A stretch of DNA of 40,702 nt, taken from a virus. The notes under the pieces are model-generated. The model was given only the letters and a program-made list of their open reading frames with translations. It was not told where the DNA came from and did not search any database. The position numbers were made by a program, and so were the translations under genes. The stretch covers positions 1 to 40,702 of IMG/VR virus record IMGVR_UViG_3300036853_000241, one strand, 5' to 3'. Positions 90 to 40,702 of this stretch are shown here, piece by piece (position 1 is the stretch's first letter; each line of letters begins with the position of its first letter).

Positions 90-782
90 TCATAACCCCT
101 GCCTTGCGGGAGGGAGAGGCAGGTTGCTTCTCTCTGCGTATTCCTTGCCGATTTGCCAGACGCGGTTCTTAGTGGAAAAGATTCTCCACCCGCGTTTGGG
201 GCCAATCTTTTTCAAGTCGGCAACGATCTTGTCGTGCGGCACTCCCGCACAACACCTCTGATAAATCCACTTGTCGCGTGCTTCGGTTTTCTTGTCCCGC
301 TTCGCGGGCTTCGGAACCTTCTTCGCCCGCGACGACTTCGCTCCCAAACTCACGCGGGTAGCTTCATCGGTGAGCTTCGCTTTCGCCGTCTGCCGATCAG
401 CCCACGCCAGCGCGTATTCGTACACTTCGCGGAGAGTGTAGTCTTTCGCACGCAGTCGTTCCTCGGGCATTTCAACAACACGAGCCAGGTGCATCCATTC
501 TTGAAGACCTTTCGGGCGACCCAAGTGCCGAGTCTCCAGGGTGTCGCGAGCAGCTTCGAGTCCGGCTTGAATTGCCTCGATCCCTTCCTGAATCACCCGC
601 CGCTGCGCCTCTACGGCCTCTCGATATCCCGACGAGTTGATCCCCTCGATCATCGCGTTCACGAAGGCTTGCATGCGCGTTTGGATGCGCTCCCACGCGG
701 CCCGCATCTCCGGGTCGTTATCAACGCGTTCTTGGAAGGCTTGGCCAGCGAGCACATCGCGGGGCGCGGAGTCGTTCGACAT
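90..782 (-). CDS. Hypothetical protein, charged, possible DNA-binding C-terminus
   Basis: A 230-residue protein of unrecognised family. The N-terminal 90 residues are helix-rich and charged. The middle has a Lys/Arg-rich linker (KKVPKPAKRDKK). The C-terminal segment (DKWIYQRCCAGVPHDKIVADL) looks like a helix-turn-helix of the kind used for repetitive DNA recognition, but this is inference. It is the only gene at the left end and runs opposite to the early operon. GGAG on the minus strand, about 6 bases before the ATG, serves as ribosome site and lies inside a 12-bp stem (785-796/825-836). Confidence 0.75.
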   Translation of the reverse strand: MSNDSAPRDVLAGQAFQERVDNDPEMRAAWERIQTRMQAFVNAMIEGINSSGYREAVEAQRRVIQEGIEAIQAGLEAARDTLETRHLGRPKGLQEWMHLARVVEMPEERLRAKDYTLREVYEYALAWADRQTAKAKLTDEATRVSLGAKSSRAKKVPKPAKRDKKTEARDKWIYQRCCAGVPHDKIVADLKKIGPKRGWRIFSTKNRVWQIGKEYAERSNLPLPPARQGL

Positions 783-784
783 GA

Positions 785-836
785 GTTACTCCACGAACAC
801 GGGCCGGCTCGACCGGCGCTCGCGTCGTGGAGTAAC
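785..836 (-). promoter_or_regulatory. Hairpin covering the ribosome site of the 90-782 gene
   Basis: Perfect 12-bp inverted arms at 785-796 and 825-836 enclose a GC-rich 28-base loop with its own CCGG repeats. The minus-strand GGAG ribosome site lies within the gene-proximal arm. In mRNA the hairpin would hide the ribosome site. As DNA it could be an operator. Confidence 0.6.
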
Positions 837-1177
837 CGCGGTCGCCGGTCGAGCGTCAGCCGGTAGCTACTCCGGCCTTCCCGCTGGACGCACTATACCA
901 CCTCTCCCCTAACCCTTCCCTGCCGAAATCTGACCCTCGATTTTTGATCGCAGTTAAGAGATCGACCGGGCGCGAGGGTGATCGGCCGAAAACCAACTCC
1001 CAAACGCAGGCGCGCAAAGCGAACCGCGTTTCCTTTCGTTTGTCACATTGGATCGACTGTAACGTTCGCGACTGAACACGGGCGTTTGGTGGTGATGGCG
1101 ACTGCGAGTGAAAAAAATCCTTCGCGAAGTGGACTGCGGAGTGGGCGTTTTTGGGAAGTGTCCGGACCCCGGTTGAC

Positions 1178-1252
1178 GGCGCTTAAGCGCCTTGCCTTGC
1201 CTTTTAGAAAAATACTTAAATAGCTAGGCTAGGCATTAATATCGCTTAAGCG
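1178..1252. repeat. AT-rich island flanked by CTTAAG palindromes
   Basis: A 14-bp perfect palindrome (1178-1191) and a 10-bp palindrome sharing the core CGCTTAAGCG (1243-1252) bracket an AT-rich stretch containing CTTTTAGAAAAATACTTAAA and short tandem TAGGC units. The outer bases also pair (GACGGC from 1175, GCCGTC to about 1262), giving a large inverted structure. The base composition is sharply unlike the GC-rich surroundings and suits a DNA-unwinding element; that role is inferred. Confidence 0.65.
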
Positions 1253-1300
1253 CTAAGCCGTCGAAAACACCGCGCCGTTTCGGGCACCCGTCGTCAGGGT

Positions 1301-1426
1301 CGGCGCCGTTCATTTCAACGGCGCCGTGAAAAGGAACGGCGCCGTTCCTACAACGGCGCCGTTGAAATGAACGGCGCCGTTACCCCAACGGCGCCGTTGG
1401 GTTTTGAAAAGGTTACGACGGCGCCG
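1301..1426. repeat. Array of seven phased CGGCGCCG palindromes (iteron-like)
   Basis: GGCGCC cores begin at 1302, 1320, 1338, 1355, 1373, 1390 and 1420. The first six are spaced 18, 18, 17, 18 and 17 bp; the last lies 30 bp further on. Most copies extend to the 12-base palindrome AACGGCGCCGTT. A possible half copy (CGCGCCGTT) is at 1271-1279. Regular spacing of a palindromic site points to a cooperatively binding protein: an initiator, partition protein or repressor. No binding protein can be assigned from sequence. Confidence 0.8.
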
Positions 1427-1598
1427 ATGGGGGGAACGGGGTTACGACCGTGCGAGAAGTCGGCGCTTGACGAATTGGTGAACGTCGGGTAAGGTTCTCT
1501 CCGCTGACCGGTTTGCAAGCGACCAGTCCGGGGTTCGACCCATCGCGTGATGGTGCCCGTGGCTGATTAGGTGAGCCGGCGGCGCACAGAGTTCGTTC

Positions 1599-2657
1599 AT
1601 GACCCCATCGTTTCGATGGGTCCCCGACGATTCTCCGTCGGTGGACAAAACCCCGTTTGTTCCAGCACTTCGTTTCACTGGCACCGGTAAGGTGTGGCGT
1701 GTTTGGCTGCTCGCCGATGTGCGGTGCATGGCCGTGCATTACCAGCCCGGCCAGAAGACGCAACCGTGCCTCGCGGAGTCGGGCGAGTGCCCGTACTGCA
1801 AGATGCCGACCTGGTGGGAAAGGACCGAGGCGTATGTCCCGGCGATGCTGGAAATAAAAAAACTTCCGGACCCGAGTTGGCAACCCATCCTCGCGATCCT
1901 GACCAAGGGGTGCGCAAAGCAGATGGGCGTGAAGCCCCATCGCGGAAAAATGTTCGACCTGGAGCGGGCGACGAAGGGCTCGCGCTGTACGCCGCTCAAT
2001 GCCAAACTCGTTCAGGTCAGCGACCCGCTGCGACCGTCGTTCGACATCGAGCCGCTGATCCGGCGGCTCTGGTGGGCGACGGCCGACATCGGGGCGGTCG
2101 AGCTGCCCGAGCCGATCCCCATCCCCGTCGAGGAAGTGCATCGCGAACCGTTCGTGCCCGTGCTTCAGCCGCTCATGCTCACCGAGGAAGAGAAGACTCG
2201 CATGCGCGAGCAGGCGCAGCGGCTCGGCCTTGCGAACTTCGCCGCGAAGATCGGCAGCCCGGAACCGGATTCGCGTTCTCACGCGACCGAGGCCGTTCCC
2301 GCCGCTCAGTCAACTCCCACATCGGCGACCCAGCCGACCACGTCACCACCGGCCGCTGTGGTCGAGCCTGCCACACTCGACGGGCTAACCATCAAGCCCG
2401 AACCCGGCGTGCTCTCCGGGACGCTGGTGAAAGCTGCCGGCCCGGATCAATCGCCGCAGACGAAACCCGCGCCCACCAAGCCGCTCCCGCAACCGCGGGT
2501 GTCCATGACACAGGCTGCGTTGAATCGCATCGACTCGACGCTACAGCAACGCGAGGCCGGCGACCGGCAAGCGACCGTCGGCGATCTGCTCCCGAAGATC
2601 CTCAACACCCCGTCCAACGGCCAGCACACGAACGGCACGGAAGGGGGAACCAAGTAA
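1599..2657 (+). CDS. Zinc-motif protein, possible single-strand DNA-binding protein
   Basis: A 352-residue protein, first of the early operon and directly downstream of the palindrome array. The N-terminal half is globular and carries H47, C57, C64 and C67 (His-x9-Cys-x6-Cys-x2-Cys), reminiscent of the zinc module of T4 gp32-type single-strand DNA-binding proteins. Residues about 220-340 are a Pro/Thr/Ala-rich, probably disordered tail. The gp32-like role is inference from motif and place beside the origin candidate; overall similarity is not obvious. The start is ATG after GTTCGTTC, without a clear Shine-Dalgarno sequence. Its stop overlaps the next start by one base. Confidence 0.7.
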   Translation: MTPSFRWVPDDSPSVDKTPFVPALRFTGTGKVWRVWLLADVRCMAVHYQPGQKTQPCLAESGECPYCKMPTWWERTEAYVPAMLEIKKLPDPSWQPILAILTKGCAKQMGVKPHRGKMFDLERATKGSRCTPLNAKLVQVSDPLRPSFDIEPLIRRLWWATADIGAVELPEPIPIPVEEVHREPFVPVLQPLMLTEEEKTRMREQAQRLGLANFAAKIGSPEPDSRSHATEAVPAAQSTPTSATQPTTSPPAAVVEPATLDGLTIKPEPGVLSGTLVKAAGPDQSPQTKPAPTKPLPQPRVSMTQAALNRIDSTLQQREAGDRQATVGDLLPKILNTPSNGQHTNGTEGGTK

Positions 2658-7010: not shown

Positions 7011-7384
7011 AAGACGACACCAAGCAATACCGCACGATCGACAAGTTCGATCGACTGATGGGCGCACTGGTCGGACTGCCCGACGTGACGCACACCAAGC
7101 CAACCACCTGCGCTGTTGTCTCGCCCCTGATCGGCGAGGCGCAGACGTTCATCATCCAGACCTATCGCCAGCGTGAAGTCGGCGACACGATCTTCTTGCA
7201 GTACGTCGACGGCGAGGGCAGCGTCCGCATCGCGATCCCGCCCGAAGTGGCCGACGCGATCGCACGTCAGCGAGACGCACTCACGAGCAAAGTCCGCAAG
7301 CGAGTCGCACGCGACCAGGCCGCGGCACGCAAGGCGCGCGGCGAGCGGCCGGCGTTCCTGAAGAAGAAGGGCCAACCGAAATGA
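7007..7384 (+). CDS. Hypothetical early protein
   Basis: 125 residues, unrecognised. It begins with GTG overlapping the upstream TGA and has AAGGAG ribosome sites in the preceding codons. The N-terminal 85 residues look like a compact beta-rich domain (TFIIQTYRQREVGDTIFLQYVDGEG cut here as description), with a basic Lys/Arg-rich C-terminal helix that could bind nucleic acid. Its stop overlaps the ParB-like gene, so the two are probably made together. Confidence 0.65.
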   Translation: MKDDTKQYRTIDKFDRLMGALVGLPDVTHTKPTTCAVVSPLIGEAQTFIIQTYRQREVGDTIFLQYVDGEGSVRIAIPPEVADAIARQRDALTSKVRKRVARDQAAARKARGERPAFLKKKGQPK

Positions 7385-8481
7385 GCAAGCAACGCGAACT
7401 ACCGACCGCGAGCCTCTCGCTCCACCCCGAAGCGGGAGTCGTTCCCGAGATGCCCGAAGATCAGTTCAAGCTGTTCCTGGCGGACATCGAGAAGAACGGC
7501 ATTGAAGACCCGCTCGCCGTGTTGCCCGGAACGAAGATCGTCATCCGCGGCCGGACTCGGTTGCGCGCCGCCAACGTCCTCAACCTGCCGTCGGTCCCGG
7601 TAGTCGATGCGGACCTGCGCGGGCAATCGCCGGCGATGTACATGATCCGCGACGCCGTGCTTCGCCGCCAGCTCACCAAAGATCAACGCGCGGCCCTGGC
7701 TGCCGAGATCGAAGAGGACCTCACCAAAGCGGCGAAGGAGCGACAGCGGGAAGGCGGCAAGAAGGGGGCAGCAACCGCCGGACGTGGGCGTCCGAAGCAG
7801 GGCGATAATGGGGTTGTGGCGAATTCGCCACAACCCAAACCGGCTCCGAAGTCCCGGGACACCGCCGCGGCGATCGCCGGCGCGAAGCCCCGGGCCGTGT
7901 CCGACGCGAAGAAGTTGAAGAAGGTAGACCCCAAGGGATTCGAGCAGGTGAAGGCCGGTACCGTCACGCTCGCCGCGGCGAAGAACGCCGCGGGCATCAC
8001 CACGCCGAAGAAGGATCCCGCACCGTCGACACAACCGGCCGGGACGCCCCTTGATACCATCCAGAATTTCCCCACCGAGGCTCTCGCACCTCTGGCTCTC
8101 AAAGGCGTCCGCACTGTCGAGGACCTCGACGAGCAGCTCGCGGCCCTCCGCAAAGAGAGGGGCCGCAGCAGCGCCACACGCACCCATGTCCTGAGCAACC
8201 TGATCCCTGAGAACACGATGCTCGCCTGGAAGGCAGGCGACGCGCTGATTGATCATTTCGGGCCAACGAAGCAGCCGCCCAAACCCCCGCCTGCTCCGAA
8301 GCCATCCGATACCCCGCACGAACTCAAGCCCTGTCCCTTCTGCGAATCGTCGAACGTGGAGTACGTCAAGGGCCTTGGGATGTGCGTCATGTGTCATGAG
8401 TGCGGCAGCAACGGGCCGCGGAAGACGAGTGAGGTCGCCTGTTGCGTCGCGTGGAACAAAGCGCCGAGGGCCAAGAAATGA
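7381..8481 (+). CDS. ParB/Srx-like protein fused to Lar-type zinc domain
   Basis: 366 residues. Residues 1-115 look like a ParB/sulfiredoxin-fold N-terminal domain: a conserved NGIEDPLAVL turn, then VIRGRTRLRAANVL in place of the usual GxHR motif, followed by LRRQLTKDQRAALAAEI. A long Lys/Ala/Pro linker with one helical segment (AVSDAKKLKKVDP...) follows. Residues 315-366 match the Lar restriction-alleviation zinc module: LKPCPFCESSNVEY (C318, C321), CHECG (C338, C341) and the final AWN. The fusion may combine DNA binding with anti-restriction or host-factor control. It is coupled to the neighbours by 4-bp overlaps. Confidence 0.8.
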   Translation: MSKQRELPTASLSLHPEAGVVPEMPEDQFKLFLADIEKNGIEDPLAVLPGTKIVIRGRTRLRAANVLNLPSVPVVDADLRGQSPAMYMIRDAVLRRQLTKDQRAALAAEIEEDLTKAAKERQREGGKKGAATAGRGRPKQGDNGVVANSPQPKPAPKSRDTAAAIAGAKPRAVSDAKKLKKVDPKGFEQVKAGTVTLAAAKNAAGITTPKKDPAPSTQPAGTPLDTIQNFPTEALAPLALKGVRTVEDLDEQLAALRKERGRSSATRTHVLSNLIPENTMLAWKAGDALIDHFGPTKQPPKPPPAPKPSDTPHELKPCPFCESSNVEYVKGLGMCVMCHECGSNGPRKTSEVACCVAWNKAPRAKK

Positions 8482-16455: not shown

Positions 16456-19053
16456 GTGTTCGACTGGCTGCGATCGCGATTCGGCTGGGGGCGCGGTACC
16501 GAAACCGCACGCCCCACGCCTCTACGCGCACGCTACGAGAACGCACAGACCACGCCCGAGAACCAACGCTCCTGGTGGGCGGTCGATTATCTCTCGGCGA
16601 AGGCCGCGAACAGTTTCCAGGTCCGCCGGATCCTCCGAACACGAAGCCGCCATGAAGTTGCAAACAACCCCATCCTCTTTGGCGTGGTCCACTCCAACGC
16701 TGACGACCTCATCGACACCGGCCCGACGATCCAGGTCTACACCGACAACGCGAAATACAACCGTCTTGTCGAAGGCTCCTGGAAAGAATGGTGCGAAGAA
16801 GTCGGGTTAACGGAGAAGGTCCGCACGACGAAGCTCGCGAAGTCGGTCGACGGTGAAGGGTTCCTCATCACGAAGACCGTGGAGGACCTCGAACACCCGG
16901 TCAAACTCTACCCCTGCGACGTCGAAGCCGACCAGATCACAACCCCAGTGCCGAAGAACATCGGCGAGCTGTGGGTCGATGGGCTCGAACTGCACCCGGT
17001 TACCGGAAAGCCGACGCACTACACGGTCTTGAAGACTCACCCCGGCGATTACTTCTTCCCCGATTTGAACCCGCTGGCAACCGAGCGGATCCAGGCCCGG
17101 CACGTCGTCCACTGGTTCACCCAGTCGCGGCCCGGCCAGGTTCGCGGTGTGCCGATCTTCACGCCCTCCCTCGACCTCTTCAGCGAGCTGCGCGCGTACC
17201 GTAAGGCCGTGCTCGGCGCCGCGGAGATCGCGGCGGACTACGCCGCGGTGATGGAGCAGGACCGCGAGGCCGGGGCCTACCCCGACGACGACGAGGACAA
17301 CGACGCCGAGTACCAGGCGTTTAGCCGCGTGCCGCTGTCGCGGAAGATGCTGACCGTGCTGCCACCCGGCGGCAAGATGAACCAGCTCGACCCGAAGCAG
17401 CCGACGACCACGTACGAGATGTTCCAGGAGAAGTGCCTCGGCGAAGCGTGCCGGCCGCTCTCCTACCCGCTCAACCTGGCGCTTGGCACGTCGCAGAAGT
17501 TCAACTTCAGCTCGGCGAAGCTCGACCACATCAATTACCGCAACTCCCTTTCGATCGAACGCGACCAGTGCGCGAAGATGGTGCTCGAACGGATCTTCCG
17601 CGCGTGGTTTGAAGAAGCGGTGCTCTGCGGTGCGATCCCGGCATTCCAAGGTCTCACGGTCCCACCGCACGAATGGCACTGGCCGGGCTACGAGCCGCTT
17701 GACCCAGTCACCGACGCGCAGGCCGATCACGAACGGCTCAGTAACGGCTCGGACACGTGGCAACGGTTCTGGGCACGCCGCGGCCTGGATTACCGCGACG
17801 TGTTCCGGCAACAGGCCGCGGAGCAAGAGGAAATCGACACGCTCGGCCTCCAGTTCGGCGAACCGGCGTCGAAGACGATCAGCGAAACGCAGGACCTCAC
17901 CGACGACGGATCCGGCACGCCGCCCAACAAGGCGACCGCACACCGCCAGTTGTGGCGGAACTTCGTTCGTGCACGGGCGGCACTGCTGCGTGCGACGAAG
18001 GACGACAACGGCCAGGAGCACGACGACAAGGGCCGGTTCGGCGAGGGCGGCGGGGGCGGGGAGAAGGACGGCTCCGATAAGGGCGACAAGAAACCGAATC
18101 CCGAACATGCCGAGCATCACGACCGCTGGCGAAAGGAAGACGACGAGGTCGAAACCAAGCGTGAGAAGGAAGACGACGAGGTCGAAACCAAGCGTGAGAA
18201 GGAAGACGCGGTCATCGAGAAATCACGCCAGAAGCAAGAGCAGCAGACGGAGAAGGAACTCGCCAAAAAGCATGCTGCCGAAAACCGCCAGGTCGAACGC
18301 GAGCGTGCGGCCGAAGACAAGAAGACCGAGCGTGACCGCAGCCAAGAAGATAAGAAGGTCGAGCGGTCGCGAGAGAAGGAAGACGACGAACTCGAACGCG
18401 AGGAAGAACGGGAGCGGGAGCGGGTCGGCTACGGCGACAAAGAAGAAGAGATGTATGGCCGCCAGGAAACCGAGGAGAAGTCACTCAAGGAAAAGCACGA
18501 GCAGGCTCACGAATCACTCAAGCGTGACGTTCTCGATCGGGTCGAGAAGGGCGAACTGACGGCGCCGGAAGCCCAAGAATCGATCGACGAGCAAAGGCGA
18601 GTGCAGGAACGGGAACGAAAAGAACTCGTTCAGAAGCACATGCAGGAAGAACAAGACCTCTACGAGACGTTAGAGACCCCCAAGAAGAAGACCGAGATCG
18701 AAGACCAGCGCGACGAGGAAGACGGGGATCGCGAAGAACGCCGGTCAGAAGAAGACAGCAAGCGAGAAGAAAACCGGGAGAAGGAAGACGAAGAGCGCGA
18801 AGAACGCCAATCCAATGAACGCTCCAGCTTGGAGCGTAAGTGGGAGAGGGAAGACGAAGATCGCGAACAACATCGATCGGAAGAAGACGAGGATCGCGCC
18901 AGCAAGAGGGATCAGGAAGACGCCGAACGATACCAACAGCGCAAGAACGATCAGCCTGGCGCGCACGAGGCTTACTACGACGCCGACAACCACAAGCGGC
19001 ACGGCGACACGAAAGCCGACGCGGCGCGGCGGGGGGCGGTCCATGCGCATTAA
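16456..19053 (+). CDS. Portal protein (lambda gpB-like) with long charged C-terminal extension
   Basis: 865 residues. The first ~515 residues are a lambda-family portal: N-terminal helices, NNPILFGVVHSNADDLIDTGP, GEGFLITKT, HVVHWFTQSRPGQVRGVPIF and PLSYPLNLALG are typical. It forms the packaging vertex of the head. The remaining ~350 residues are an almost pure Glu/Lys/Arg/Asp coiled coil beginning after a Gly-rich hinge near EHDDKGRFGEGGGGG, with short repeats such as EDDEVETKREK. Lambda portals end near 530, so this is an unusual addition, perhaps scaffold-like. GTG start directly after the preceding gene. Confidence 0.88.
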   Translation: MFDWLRSRFGWGRGTETARPTPLRARYENAQTTPENQRSWWAVDYLSAKAANSFQVRRILRTRSRHEVANNPILFGVVHSNADDLIDTGPTIQVYTDNAKYNRLVEGSWKEWCEEVGLTEKVRTTKLAKSVDGEGFLITKTVEDLEHPVKLYPCDVEADQITTPVPKNIGELWVDGLELHPVTGKPTHYTVLKTHPGDYFFPDLNPLATERIQARHVVHWFTQSRPGQVRGVPIFTPSLDLFSELRAYRKAVLGAAEIAADYAAVMEQDREAGAYPDDDEDNDAEYQAFSRVPLSRKMLTVLPPGGKMNQLDPKQPTTTYEMFQEKCLGEACRPLSYPLNLALGTSQKFNFSSAKLDHINYRNSLSIERDQCAKMVLERIFRAWFEEAVLCGAIPAFQGLTVPPHEWHWPGYEPLDPVTDAQADHERLSNGSDTWQRFWARRGLDYRDVFRQQAAEQEEIDTLGLQFGEPASKTISETQDLTDDGSGTPPNKATAHRQLWRNFVRARAALLRATKDDNGQEHDDKGRFGEGGGGGEKDGSDKGDKKPNPEHAEHHDRWRKEDDEVETKREKEDDEVETKREKEDAVIEKSRQKQEQQTEKELAKKHAAENRQVERERAAEDKKTERDRSQEDKKVERSREKEDDELEREEERERERVGYGDKEEEMYGRQETEEKSLKEKHEQAHESLKRDVLDRVEKGELTAPEAQESIDEQRRVQERERKELVQKHMQEEQDLYETLETPKKKTEIEDQRDEEDGDREERRSEEDSKREENREKEDEEREERQSNERSSLERKWEREDEDREQHRSEEDEDRASKRDQEDAERYQQRKNDQPGAHEAYYDADNHKRHGDTKADAARRGAVHAH
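18133..18198 (+). repeat. 33-bp tandem repeat in the portal extension
   Basis: Two exact consecutive copies, 18133-18165 and 18166-18198, encode an 11-residue Glu/Lys/Asp-rich unit. They show recent slippage or duplication in the coiled-coil tail. Confidence 0.8.
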
Positions 19054-24797: not shown

Positions 24798-24831
24798 GTC
24801 GTGAGAACGCTGCCGGCAGCGTTCTCACGAC
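24798..24831. repeat. 34-bp perfect palindrome before the tail-tube gene
   Basis: Positions 24798-24831 form a perfect inverted repeat of two 17-base arms with no spacer (centre CC|GG). It starts two bases after the stop codon and ends 22 bases before the ATG at 24854. No T-run. As RNA it would make a very stable hairpin; as DNA a cruciform or dimer-binding site. Confidence 0.85.
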
Positions 24832-38269: not shown

Positions 38270-39382
38270 ATGCCCCAAAAGCCTAAGAAACCAGCGCCGG
38301 AACCGGATGCGCGCAAAACTCGCGCATCTCGGAACACCTTACGCCAACAATCTAAACTAAGTCAGCCCGAGAAGGTTGAAGGGGGAGCCGATGCGCGTGT
38401 AAATATTGCCTGCCACGAGTCACACCCGTCGCCCGCGCCTGCCCCAAGCCCAACAACCTTGTACACAATCAACCGACTTCGCGAGGACTTCCTCGCCGAA
38501 GCAGGGATGCTTGTTCGCTCCGGCGAGCTGAAGGACGTCACGCTCCGCGGCTACGAGTACCAACTCGGGAAGCTCGACCCGTTCGGCGAATTCCCCGCCG
38601 ACACACTGCGGGTTCACCACCTCCACACGATCCCGTGGACCAACGGGTTCGTGCGCATCTTGAAGCAGCTTTACAAGTGGGCCACCGACAACCGCATCAT
38701 TCCCGTGGACCCGTTCGAGAAGACGAAGATCCCTCCGTGCGGGCGGCGAGAGCGGGTGCTGACGCGCGGCGAACTCGCGAGGCTCTACCGGGCCGCGCCG
38801 CGGGCCTTGCGGGTGCTGCTCTTCGTGCAGCTCCGCACCCTCGCCCGGCCCGGCGAGATCCGGAATCTCACGTGGGGCCAGATCGACTGGGAACGGCGCG
38901 TGATCGTGTTGACGGAATTCAAAGCGAAGGCGAAGCGACGTGACAAGCTCAAGGCTCGGTGCATCCCGCTCCACAAGACCGTGCTCCGGCTGCTGCGGAA
39001 CCTGCACCGCAAATCACCCGATCCGTCCGACGGCGGGCGAGTCTTCTACAATCAGCGGTTTCACATGCCGGTGAGCCGAAGAAGAAAAGCACTCGTGACG
39101 GAGCGGTGTGGGCCGTGGAGCGCCAACGGCGTACGATGCGCGATGCGCAGGGCGCGAGTGGCCGCGGGACTGATGGACGGCGGCGAACGCGTCGTCTGCT
39201 ACACACTCCGGCACACCGGGGCAACCCAAATGTGCCGGCGGAAGATCGACCTGAAGCACATCGCGGAAGTCATGGGCCACGCGCGGACGACGACAACCGA
39301 GCGGTACACCCACCTCGACACCAAAGACATGGTCGCGACGATCGACGAGCTGTTCGCACGGCCGCGAACAAAGACAGGGTGA
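38270..39382 (+). CDS. int: Tyrosine recombinase (integrase)
   Basis: 370 residues. Residues 1-70 are a Lys/Pro-rich extension. The SAM-like core-binding domain spans about 65-155 (TLYTINRLREDFLAE, FVRILKQLYKWATDNRI), then the catalytic domain: R193 (LARPGEIR), R314-H315 (TLRHTGAT), H337 (MGHARTTTT), and the nucleophile Y346 (ERYTHLD). The usual first His of HxxR is Tyr (Y311, VCYTLRHT), an unusual change worth noting. It inserts or excises the genome. Late-type leader GGTTCGCCCATG. Confidence 0.9.
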   Translation: MPQKPKKPAPEPDARKTRASRNTLRQQSKLSQPEKVEGGADARVNIACHESHPSPAPAPSPTTLYTINRLREDFLAEAGMLVRSGELKDVTLRGYEYQLGKLDPFGEFPADTLRVHHLHTIPWTNGFVRILKQLYKWATDNRIIPVDPFEKTKIPPCGRRERVLTRGELARLYRAAPRALRVLLFVQLRTLARPGEIRNLTWGQIDWERRVIVLTEFKAKAKRRDKLKARCIPLHKTVLRLLRNLHRKSPDPSDGGRVFYNQRFHMPVSRRRKALVTERCGPWSANGVRCAMRRARVAAGLMDGGERVVCYTLRHTGATQMCRRKIDLKHIAEVMGHARTTTTERYTHLDTKDMVATIDELFARPRTKTG

Positions 39383-39384
39383 GG

Positions 39385-39597
39385 TCAAACCTCGGTCGGC
39401 GCGGCCGCGAGTGCCGTCTCCCGGATCCACGCGGCGACTTTCTTCCCCTGCCGGCGGGCCACAAGCCAGATCCGGGTGTAGTCGGCGGGATCCAGCCAGA
39501 CCATCACGGCCCGCTTGCCGAGCTGCTTCATGCGTTTGGCACCCCGGACGCGTTGCTTACGCTTCTTGGGAGTGTCGGGCTTGTCGTTGTAGGCCAC
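39385..39597 (-). CDS. Ribbon-helix-helix-type protein
   Basis: 70 residues, GTG start on the minus strand at 39597. Residues about 25-66 (KRAVMVWLDPADYTRIWLVARRQGKKVAAWIRETAL) fit the ribbon-helix-helix pattern: one strand, then two helices with GKKVAAWIRE, as in Arc/CopG regulators or MobC-like proteins. Its stop lies 2 bases from the integrase stop, converging. It probably regulates integration or its own promoter. Minus-strand CGAGGTG gives a ribosome site. Confidence 0.65.
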   Translation of the reverse strand: MAYNDKPDTPKKRKQRVRGAKRMKQLGKRAVMVWLDPADYTRIWLVARRQGKKVAAWIRETALAAAPTEV

Positions 39598-39773: not shown

Positions 39774-39873
39774 CGGGCCGTAGCGCAGCTTGGCTAGCGC
39801 GCTTGCTTGGGGTGCAACCGGTCTAGCCGGTAAACTCTAACAGGCTTGGCGGGTTCGACTCCCGCCCGGTTCG
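39774..39873 (+). tRNA. tRNA-like gene, anticodon GGG (Pro), with long variable arm
   Basis: The 5' half matches bacterial tRNA-Pro: CGGGCCG acceptor, TA, D-arm GCGC...GCGC, then TTGC-loop-GCAA with loop TTGGGGT (anticodon GGG). The T-arm GCGGG-TTCGACT-CCCGC is perfect, and CGGTTCG pairs with the acceptor if one extra base is allowed, or with a 6-bp T stem. The region between has a hairpin CCGG...CCGG and totals about 30 bases, so it is type II-like. CCA is not encoded. The top anticodon-stem pair is C-C. It may be functional, divergent or a chimeric attachment site. Confidence 0.6.
39797..39823. repeat. Stem-loop element 7, the anticodon arm of the tRNA-like gene
   Basis: Arms GCGCGCTTGC and GCAACCGGTC around the 7-nt loop TTGGGGT. 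The right arm equals that of elements 4 and 6; the C-C mismatch lies at the same pair. The left arm resembles element 1. Confidence 0.65.
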
Positions 39874-40641: not shown

Positions 40642-40702
40642 GACGCCGGCGTGTCGATGAAGTGAAGTGAAGCGGCAGTGAAGTGAAGCGGCAGTGAAAT
40701 TT
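40642..40702. repeat. Right terminal direct repeat (61 bp, imperfect)
   Basis: Same 61 bases as 1-61 except G instead of T at four places. 40653-40682 is also an exact inverted copy of 60-89. Two tandem 16-bp units are present, as at the left. Confidence 0.85.

Follow-up and report, generated by a model that had tools for sequence, protein, structure and literature searches.

A regularly spaced palindrome array in an uncultured virus record: candidate replication origin or lysogeny operator

What is the role of seven nearly evenly spaced palindromic sites in the intergenic DNA of an uncultured virus? The window, that is, the whole stretch of DNA analysed, is a record of 40,702 bases. It encodes a terminase, a lambda-family portal, a capsid protein and a tyrosine integrase, and we therefore take it as a tailed temperate phage or prophage. 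From 1599 up to the integrase at 39382, almost every gene is oriented rightward, and the 90–782 gene runs leftward from the gap before 1599. A sequence-only reading of this DNA had offered a replication origin, a partition site or a nucleating repressor platform for the array. The anatomy fits an origin or an operator, and partition found little support. The coordinates of the features are collected in Table 1.

Table 1. Positions of the array sites, the surrounding elements and the genes considered as sources of a binding protein
Feature	Positions	Strand	Description
Leftward gene	90..782	-	230 aa, no known family; candidate binder
Largest non-coding gap	783..1598		816 bp, divergent genes on either side; by the gene list made here
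Inverted repeat	1173..1264		arms 1173-1188 / 1244-1264; outward GACGGC half-sites; encloses the AT-rich stretch
AT-rich stretch	1202..1251		window's highest AT for 40 / 50 bp (75% / 70%)
Possible degenerate outlying site	1268..1279		CACCGCGCCGTT, 2 mismatches; about 31 bp left of site 1
Site 1	1299..1310		GTCGGCGCCGTT
79-bp near-perfect palindrome with sites 1-5	1301..1379		27-bp perfect arms, 18-bp palindromic centre, 4/3-nt asymmetric loop
Site 2	1317..1328		AACGGCGCCGTG
Site 3	1335..1346		AACGGCGCCGTT; within 18-bp perfect palindrome 1332-1349; centre of the 79-bp palindrome
Site 4	1352..1363		AACGGCGCCGTT
Site 5	1370..1381		AACGGCGCCGTT
Site 6	1387..1398		AACGGCGCCGTT; within 18-bp perfect palindrome CCCAACGGCGCCGTTGGG
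Site 7	1417..1428		GACGGCGCCGAT; 30 bp from site 6
First rightward gene	1599..2657	+	352 aa, rich in Cys with a CPYC motif; no known family; candidate binder
70-aa protein	39385..39597	-	beside integrase; ribbon-helix-helix-like pattern by eye; candidate binder

The seven GGCGCC cores reported earlier were confirmed at 1302, 1320, 1338, 1355, 1373, 1390 and 1420, and CGGCGCCG was common to all seven sites. The claimed extension of most cores to the 12-mer AACGGCGCCGTT was exact in four of seven (sites 3 to 6), with one mismatch in site 2 and two mismatches in sites 1 and 7. Similarly, the 17–18 bp period held for six sites, with steps of 18, 18, 17, 18 and 17 bp, and not for the seventh, which was offset, 30 bp from the sixth. 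Seven GGCGCC lie in 126 bp here; when the whole 40.7 kb was simulated 200 times with an order-3 Markov model, the densest 126 bp held at most three. When all 64 six-base palindromes were counted, the densest 126 bp in 40 simulations held at most five, against the seven observed. If six sites are placed over 88 bp with a minimum gap of 12, all spacings are 17–18 bp in only 10 of 35,960 possible arrangements (2.8e-4). No site within one mismatch of AACGGCGCCGTT was found outside the array in the record. A search for chains of imperfect palindromes at regular spacing returned this array alone in the window, and it gave no chain in five further phage records or in any of six shuffles. The array is a real, non-random cis element, non-coding and unique in the record, within the gap between the divergent genes.

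The cores were unchanged in all seven sites and the spacer sequences differed. Constant cores, variable spacers and the regular pitch suggest that the binder is a dimeric DNA-binding protein, and the array is probably a protein docking array in a phage control region. The pitch of about 17.5 bp was computed as 1.67 turns, in agreement with the earlier estimate of about 1.7 turns. Each successive site is rotated by about 240 degrees, and the sites are therefore not on one helix face.

Sites 1–5 are nested in one 79-bp palindrome, which the sequence-only reading had missed; the seven sites are thus probably not independent events. Its arms (1301–1327 and 1353–1379) give the longest perfect arm pairing in the window, the next longest being 17 bp. 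The pairing extends into the spacers. When the 12-mers were fixed and only the spacer letters were shuffled, none of 2000 shuffles equalled the observed self-complementarity and none of 400 equalled the folding stability. The hairpin energy was −67.6 kcal/mol and the z-score for folding of the region was −10.4. As the spacers pair too, an inverted duplication probably gave rise to part of the array, or else the hairpin or cruciform itself was kept. Direct selection of the 79-bp palindrome, as a DNA cruciform or as a very stable hairpin in the early leader transcript (RNase III site, roadblock or antitermination site), would account for the arms, the energy and the spacer pairing. We consider it unlikely, because the cores are constant also in sites 6 and 7, which lie outside the hairpin, and because a recent inverted duplication would give the spacer pairing without selection. 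In addition, an Rfam search of the region found no family at gathering score.

Partial spacer duplications (TGAAAAGG and GGTTACGAC) were also observed within the array. They agree with a neutral repeat, in which local direct and inverted duplications amplified a palindromic repeat without any phage function. A second point in the same direction came from G004/L020; G004 had one protein in common with the window (47% identity). At 404–640, directly after a stop codon, it carries a degenerate 17-bp-period CGGCGCCGT array of about 14 units, and a second, shorter CGGCGCCGT array lies 1.8 kb on, at about 2176, as an intergenic repeat family. The array of G004 cautions that repeats of this sort may appear without having a function. 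In our window, however, spacers are mutated and no core is, the half-site is common to the array and the AT-rich element, and 130 bp of idle repeat are seldom kept by phage genomes. The neutral repeat is therefore improbable.

Comparison with related phages had been proposed earlier as a check on the array. Searches with TerL and MCP (capsid) led to four related records, of which G005 was nearest, with about 51% capsid identity over a 504-residue segment. Phased CGGCGCCG pairs and palindrome chains were both absent in the related phages G001, G002, G003 and G005. No comparable array was thus seen in any, and close relatives were not found among the records searched, which may lack near-identical ones (capsid identity at most 51%). 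BLAST of the region against phages gave no match, and against plasmids only short chance-level matches. Three perfect 10-mers at such spacing were present in only nine contigs in 84,980 sequenced genomes, from actinobacteria and one record titled Deltaproteobacteria. A host-repeat reading was rejected, since all nine contigs hold near-perfect tandem repeats with conserved spacers, unlike the variable spacers here. A looser core pattern was also set aside, because in viral contigs it returned mostly arrays at multiples of 15 bp that resemble pentapeptide-repeat coding DNA.

The AT-rich stretch lies about 55 bp left of site 1 and is a candidate unwinding element or promoter zone; neither the stretch nor the inverted repeat that encloses it had been noticed in the sequence-only reading. 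The half-sites of the inverted repeat, at 1175 and 1257, match the half-site of the array. GACGGCGC occurred only eight times outside the array (0.02 per 100 bp). As the half-site is common to both and rare elsewhere, the array and the AT-rich element look linked. The pattern of the AT-rich element gave no matches in viral contigs. Constant palindromic cores, variable spacers, the largest intergenic gap and an AT-rich neighbour together fit an origin or an operator.

Our leading but still tentative reading is that the array and the AT-rich element form a replication origin with the architecture of the phage lambda origin. It starts from the observed sites, spacing, palindrome, AT-rich trough, common half-sites and non-coding position, and from these we infer dimer binding, wrapping, unwinding and replication. 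A dimeric phage protein would bind each AACGGCGCCGTT. Neighbouring dimers, about 17.5 bp (1.67 turns) apart, would wind round the DNA and pack compactly like the lambda O-some. The compact complex would strain the AT-rich stretch open, and the host helicase would load there. The invariant cores, the AT-rich neighbour with its common half-sites, the largest gap and the lambdoid precedent argue for the origin. So does the minimum of the cumulative GC skew near 3 kb (maximum near 37 kb), a curve which is confounded by transcription direction.

In lambdoid origins, an AT-rich tract adjoins four to six iterons of 19 bp, each an imperfect inverted repeat to which an O dimer binds (PMC7466680). The contrast with iterons drawn in the sequence-only reading, where these were described as commonly direct repeats, was therefore too sharp. 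The tandem palindromic sites (seven here) and the AT-rich tract nearby are alike in both systems. The lambdoid origin, however, lies inside the O gene and the present array is non-coding, with 12-bp GC-rich perfect palindromes every 17–18 bp, five of them in the 79-bp palindrome, and with its AT-rich stretch at a distance of about 55 bp. Lambdoid phages also encode O and P, whereas no O/P homologue was found among the early proteins scanned here with Pfam, PHROGs and NCBIfam. The same scans recognised neither an initiator nor a helicase loader, helicase or primase, which counts against an origin. PICI origins combine iterons with an AT-rich region that has repeats on either side (PMC6092414). 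Half-sites flank the AT-rich stretch on both sides here too, but there are only half-sites on its left, and no pri-rep gene adjoins.

Further points weigh against the origin. No DnaA box was found near the array. The sites of common plasmid iterons are kept on one helix face, and the 17.5-bp pitch is off one face. The related phages are without the array, and spacer complementarity is not needed for a binding array. If the array is an origin, it could lead to a new initiator, since no known replication protein was recognised among the scanned early genes. The product of the first rightward gene is a candidate initiator or ssDNA-binding protein, which we infer only; its structure prediction without homologues (pLDDT 36) was uninformative. 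Searches for viral-contig relatives of the proteins encoded at 1599, 90–782 and 7381 gave none. The unrelated integrase-bearing contig L093 contains, at 2190–2370, two 17-bp palindromic copies of AACGGCGCCGTGGGCAC, two copies of the repeat AAGCGACAATGCGAAA and an AT-rich tract. They adjoin a VapE/DUF5906 helicase-type gene, and this candidate origin is a weak hint of a parallel to the origin reading of our array.

A lysogeny-switch operator would also suit this location, where the genes diverge and the early operon starts: a dimeric repressor would fill the sites cooperatively and shut down divergent promoters within the AT-rich zone. The repressor could be, for example, the leftward gene product or the 70-aa protein; the latter gave a weak NikA-like Pfam match (E 0.023). 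In a single-sequence model, the C-terminal part of the 230-aa leftward protein formed a compact, HTH-like helical bundle with confident-looking values (pLDDT about 85 at residues 161–190), and the protein may thus carry a C-terminal HTH. The integrase and the single site cluster in the genome also agree with an operator. On the other side, the leftward protein belongs to no known repressor family, its Foldseek list held no real match and was meaningless, and seven sites exceed the number in most immunity regions. A sigma-70-type promoter was absent from the region at the scan threshold, although sigma-70 rules may not be those of the host. Operators of the lambda OR/OL type are likewise palindromic sites in a divergent intergenic region near an early operon, but the array differs from them in its seven sites, its tighter spacing and the absence of an identified repressor or promoters. 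Given the array between divergent genes and the possible HTH in the leftward protein, the operator, possible though somewhat doubtful, is nearly as likely as the origin.

A partition (centromere) site bound by a ParB- or ParR-type protein is very improbable. Phage parS loci can be short-repeat arrays, as in RedRock, where parS has eight 8-bp direct repeats (PMC7157519). RedRock resembles our phage in being temperate and in having short sites at regular spacing, but the RedRock type has direct 8-bp units with parAB nearby, and neither is present here. The protein encoded at 7381–8481 has a ParB-like N-terminal domain, which would agree with partition. However, this domain is fused to a Lar restriction-alleviation domain, the gene is 6 kb away, no other ParB-like protein and no ParA occurred among the proteins scanned, and lysogens are probably integrated, as the phage has an integrase. 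Inside the same gene, at 7811, we observed a 26-bp perfect palindrome, GGGTTGTGGCGAATTCGCCACAACCC.

Two further candidates were rejected. A protelomerase telRL palindrome was dismissed because the sole tyrosine recombinase among the scanned proteins is a XerC/D-like integrase of 370 aa, and a terminase cos/pac site because the TerL gene is 11.6 kb from the array. Elsewhere in the record, the ends (1–61 and 40642–40702) form a direct repeat with 57 of 61 positions identical, all four differences being T versus G, and, once joined, the ends run on as an extended inverted repeat that reaches to about 87. Probably the record is a circle or has terminal redundancy, with its break at a hairpin. A tRNA-like gene at 39787–39872 was called by ARAGORN as Pyl with anticodon CTA (amber reader); by eye, its arms also fit a proline-type tRNA (GGG) whose variable insert is long. 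A 34-bp perfect palindrome at 24798–24831 is possibly a terminator; it lies in the short gap that separates two structural genes (24796 and 24854). At 17950–18900, the portal gene carries a long, highly charged Glu/Lys/Asp/Arg repeat in its C-terminal half.

In kind, the array is a variant of origin or operator arrays that are already known. Its GC-rich perfect palindromes, its 1.67-turn pitch and the nested 79-bp dyad are unusual. It is a long shot that these features mark a new type of origin or switch. Dimers bound to the GC-rich palindromes every 1.67 turns, with the 79-bp dyad at the centre, would then nucleate a helical protein filament or an extruded cruciform, which would open the bracketed AT-rich hairpin element.

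The nested palindrome shows how such arrays may grow via inverted duplication. If the array is an operator, its 1.67-turn pitch and the dyad across all of it would offer a clean natural test of dimer packing around DNA. Should it instead be an origin, a little-known phage lineage would gain a defined cis element, and with it a handle for finding a new initiator.
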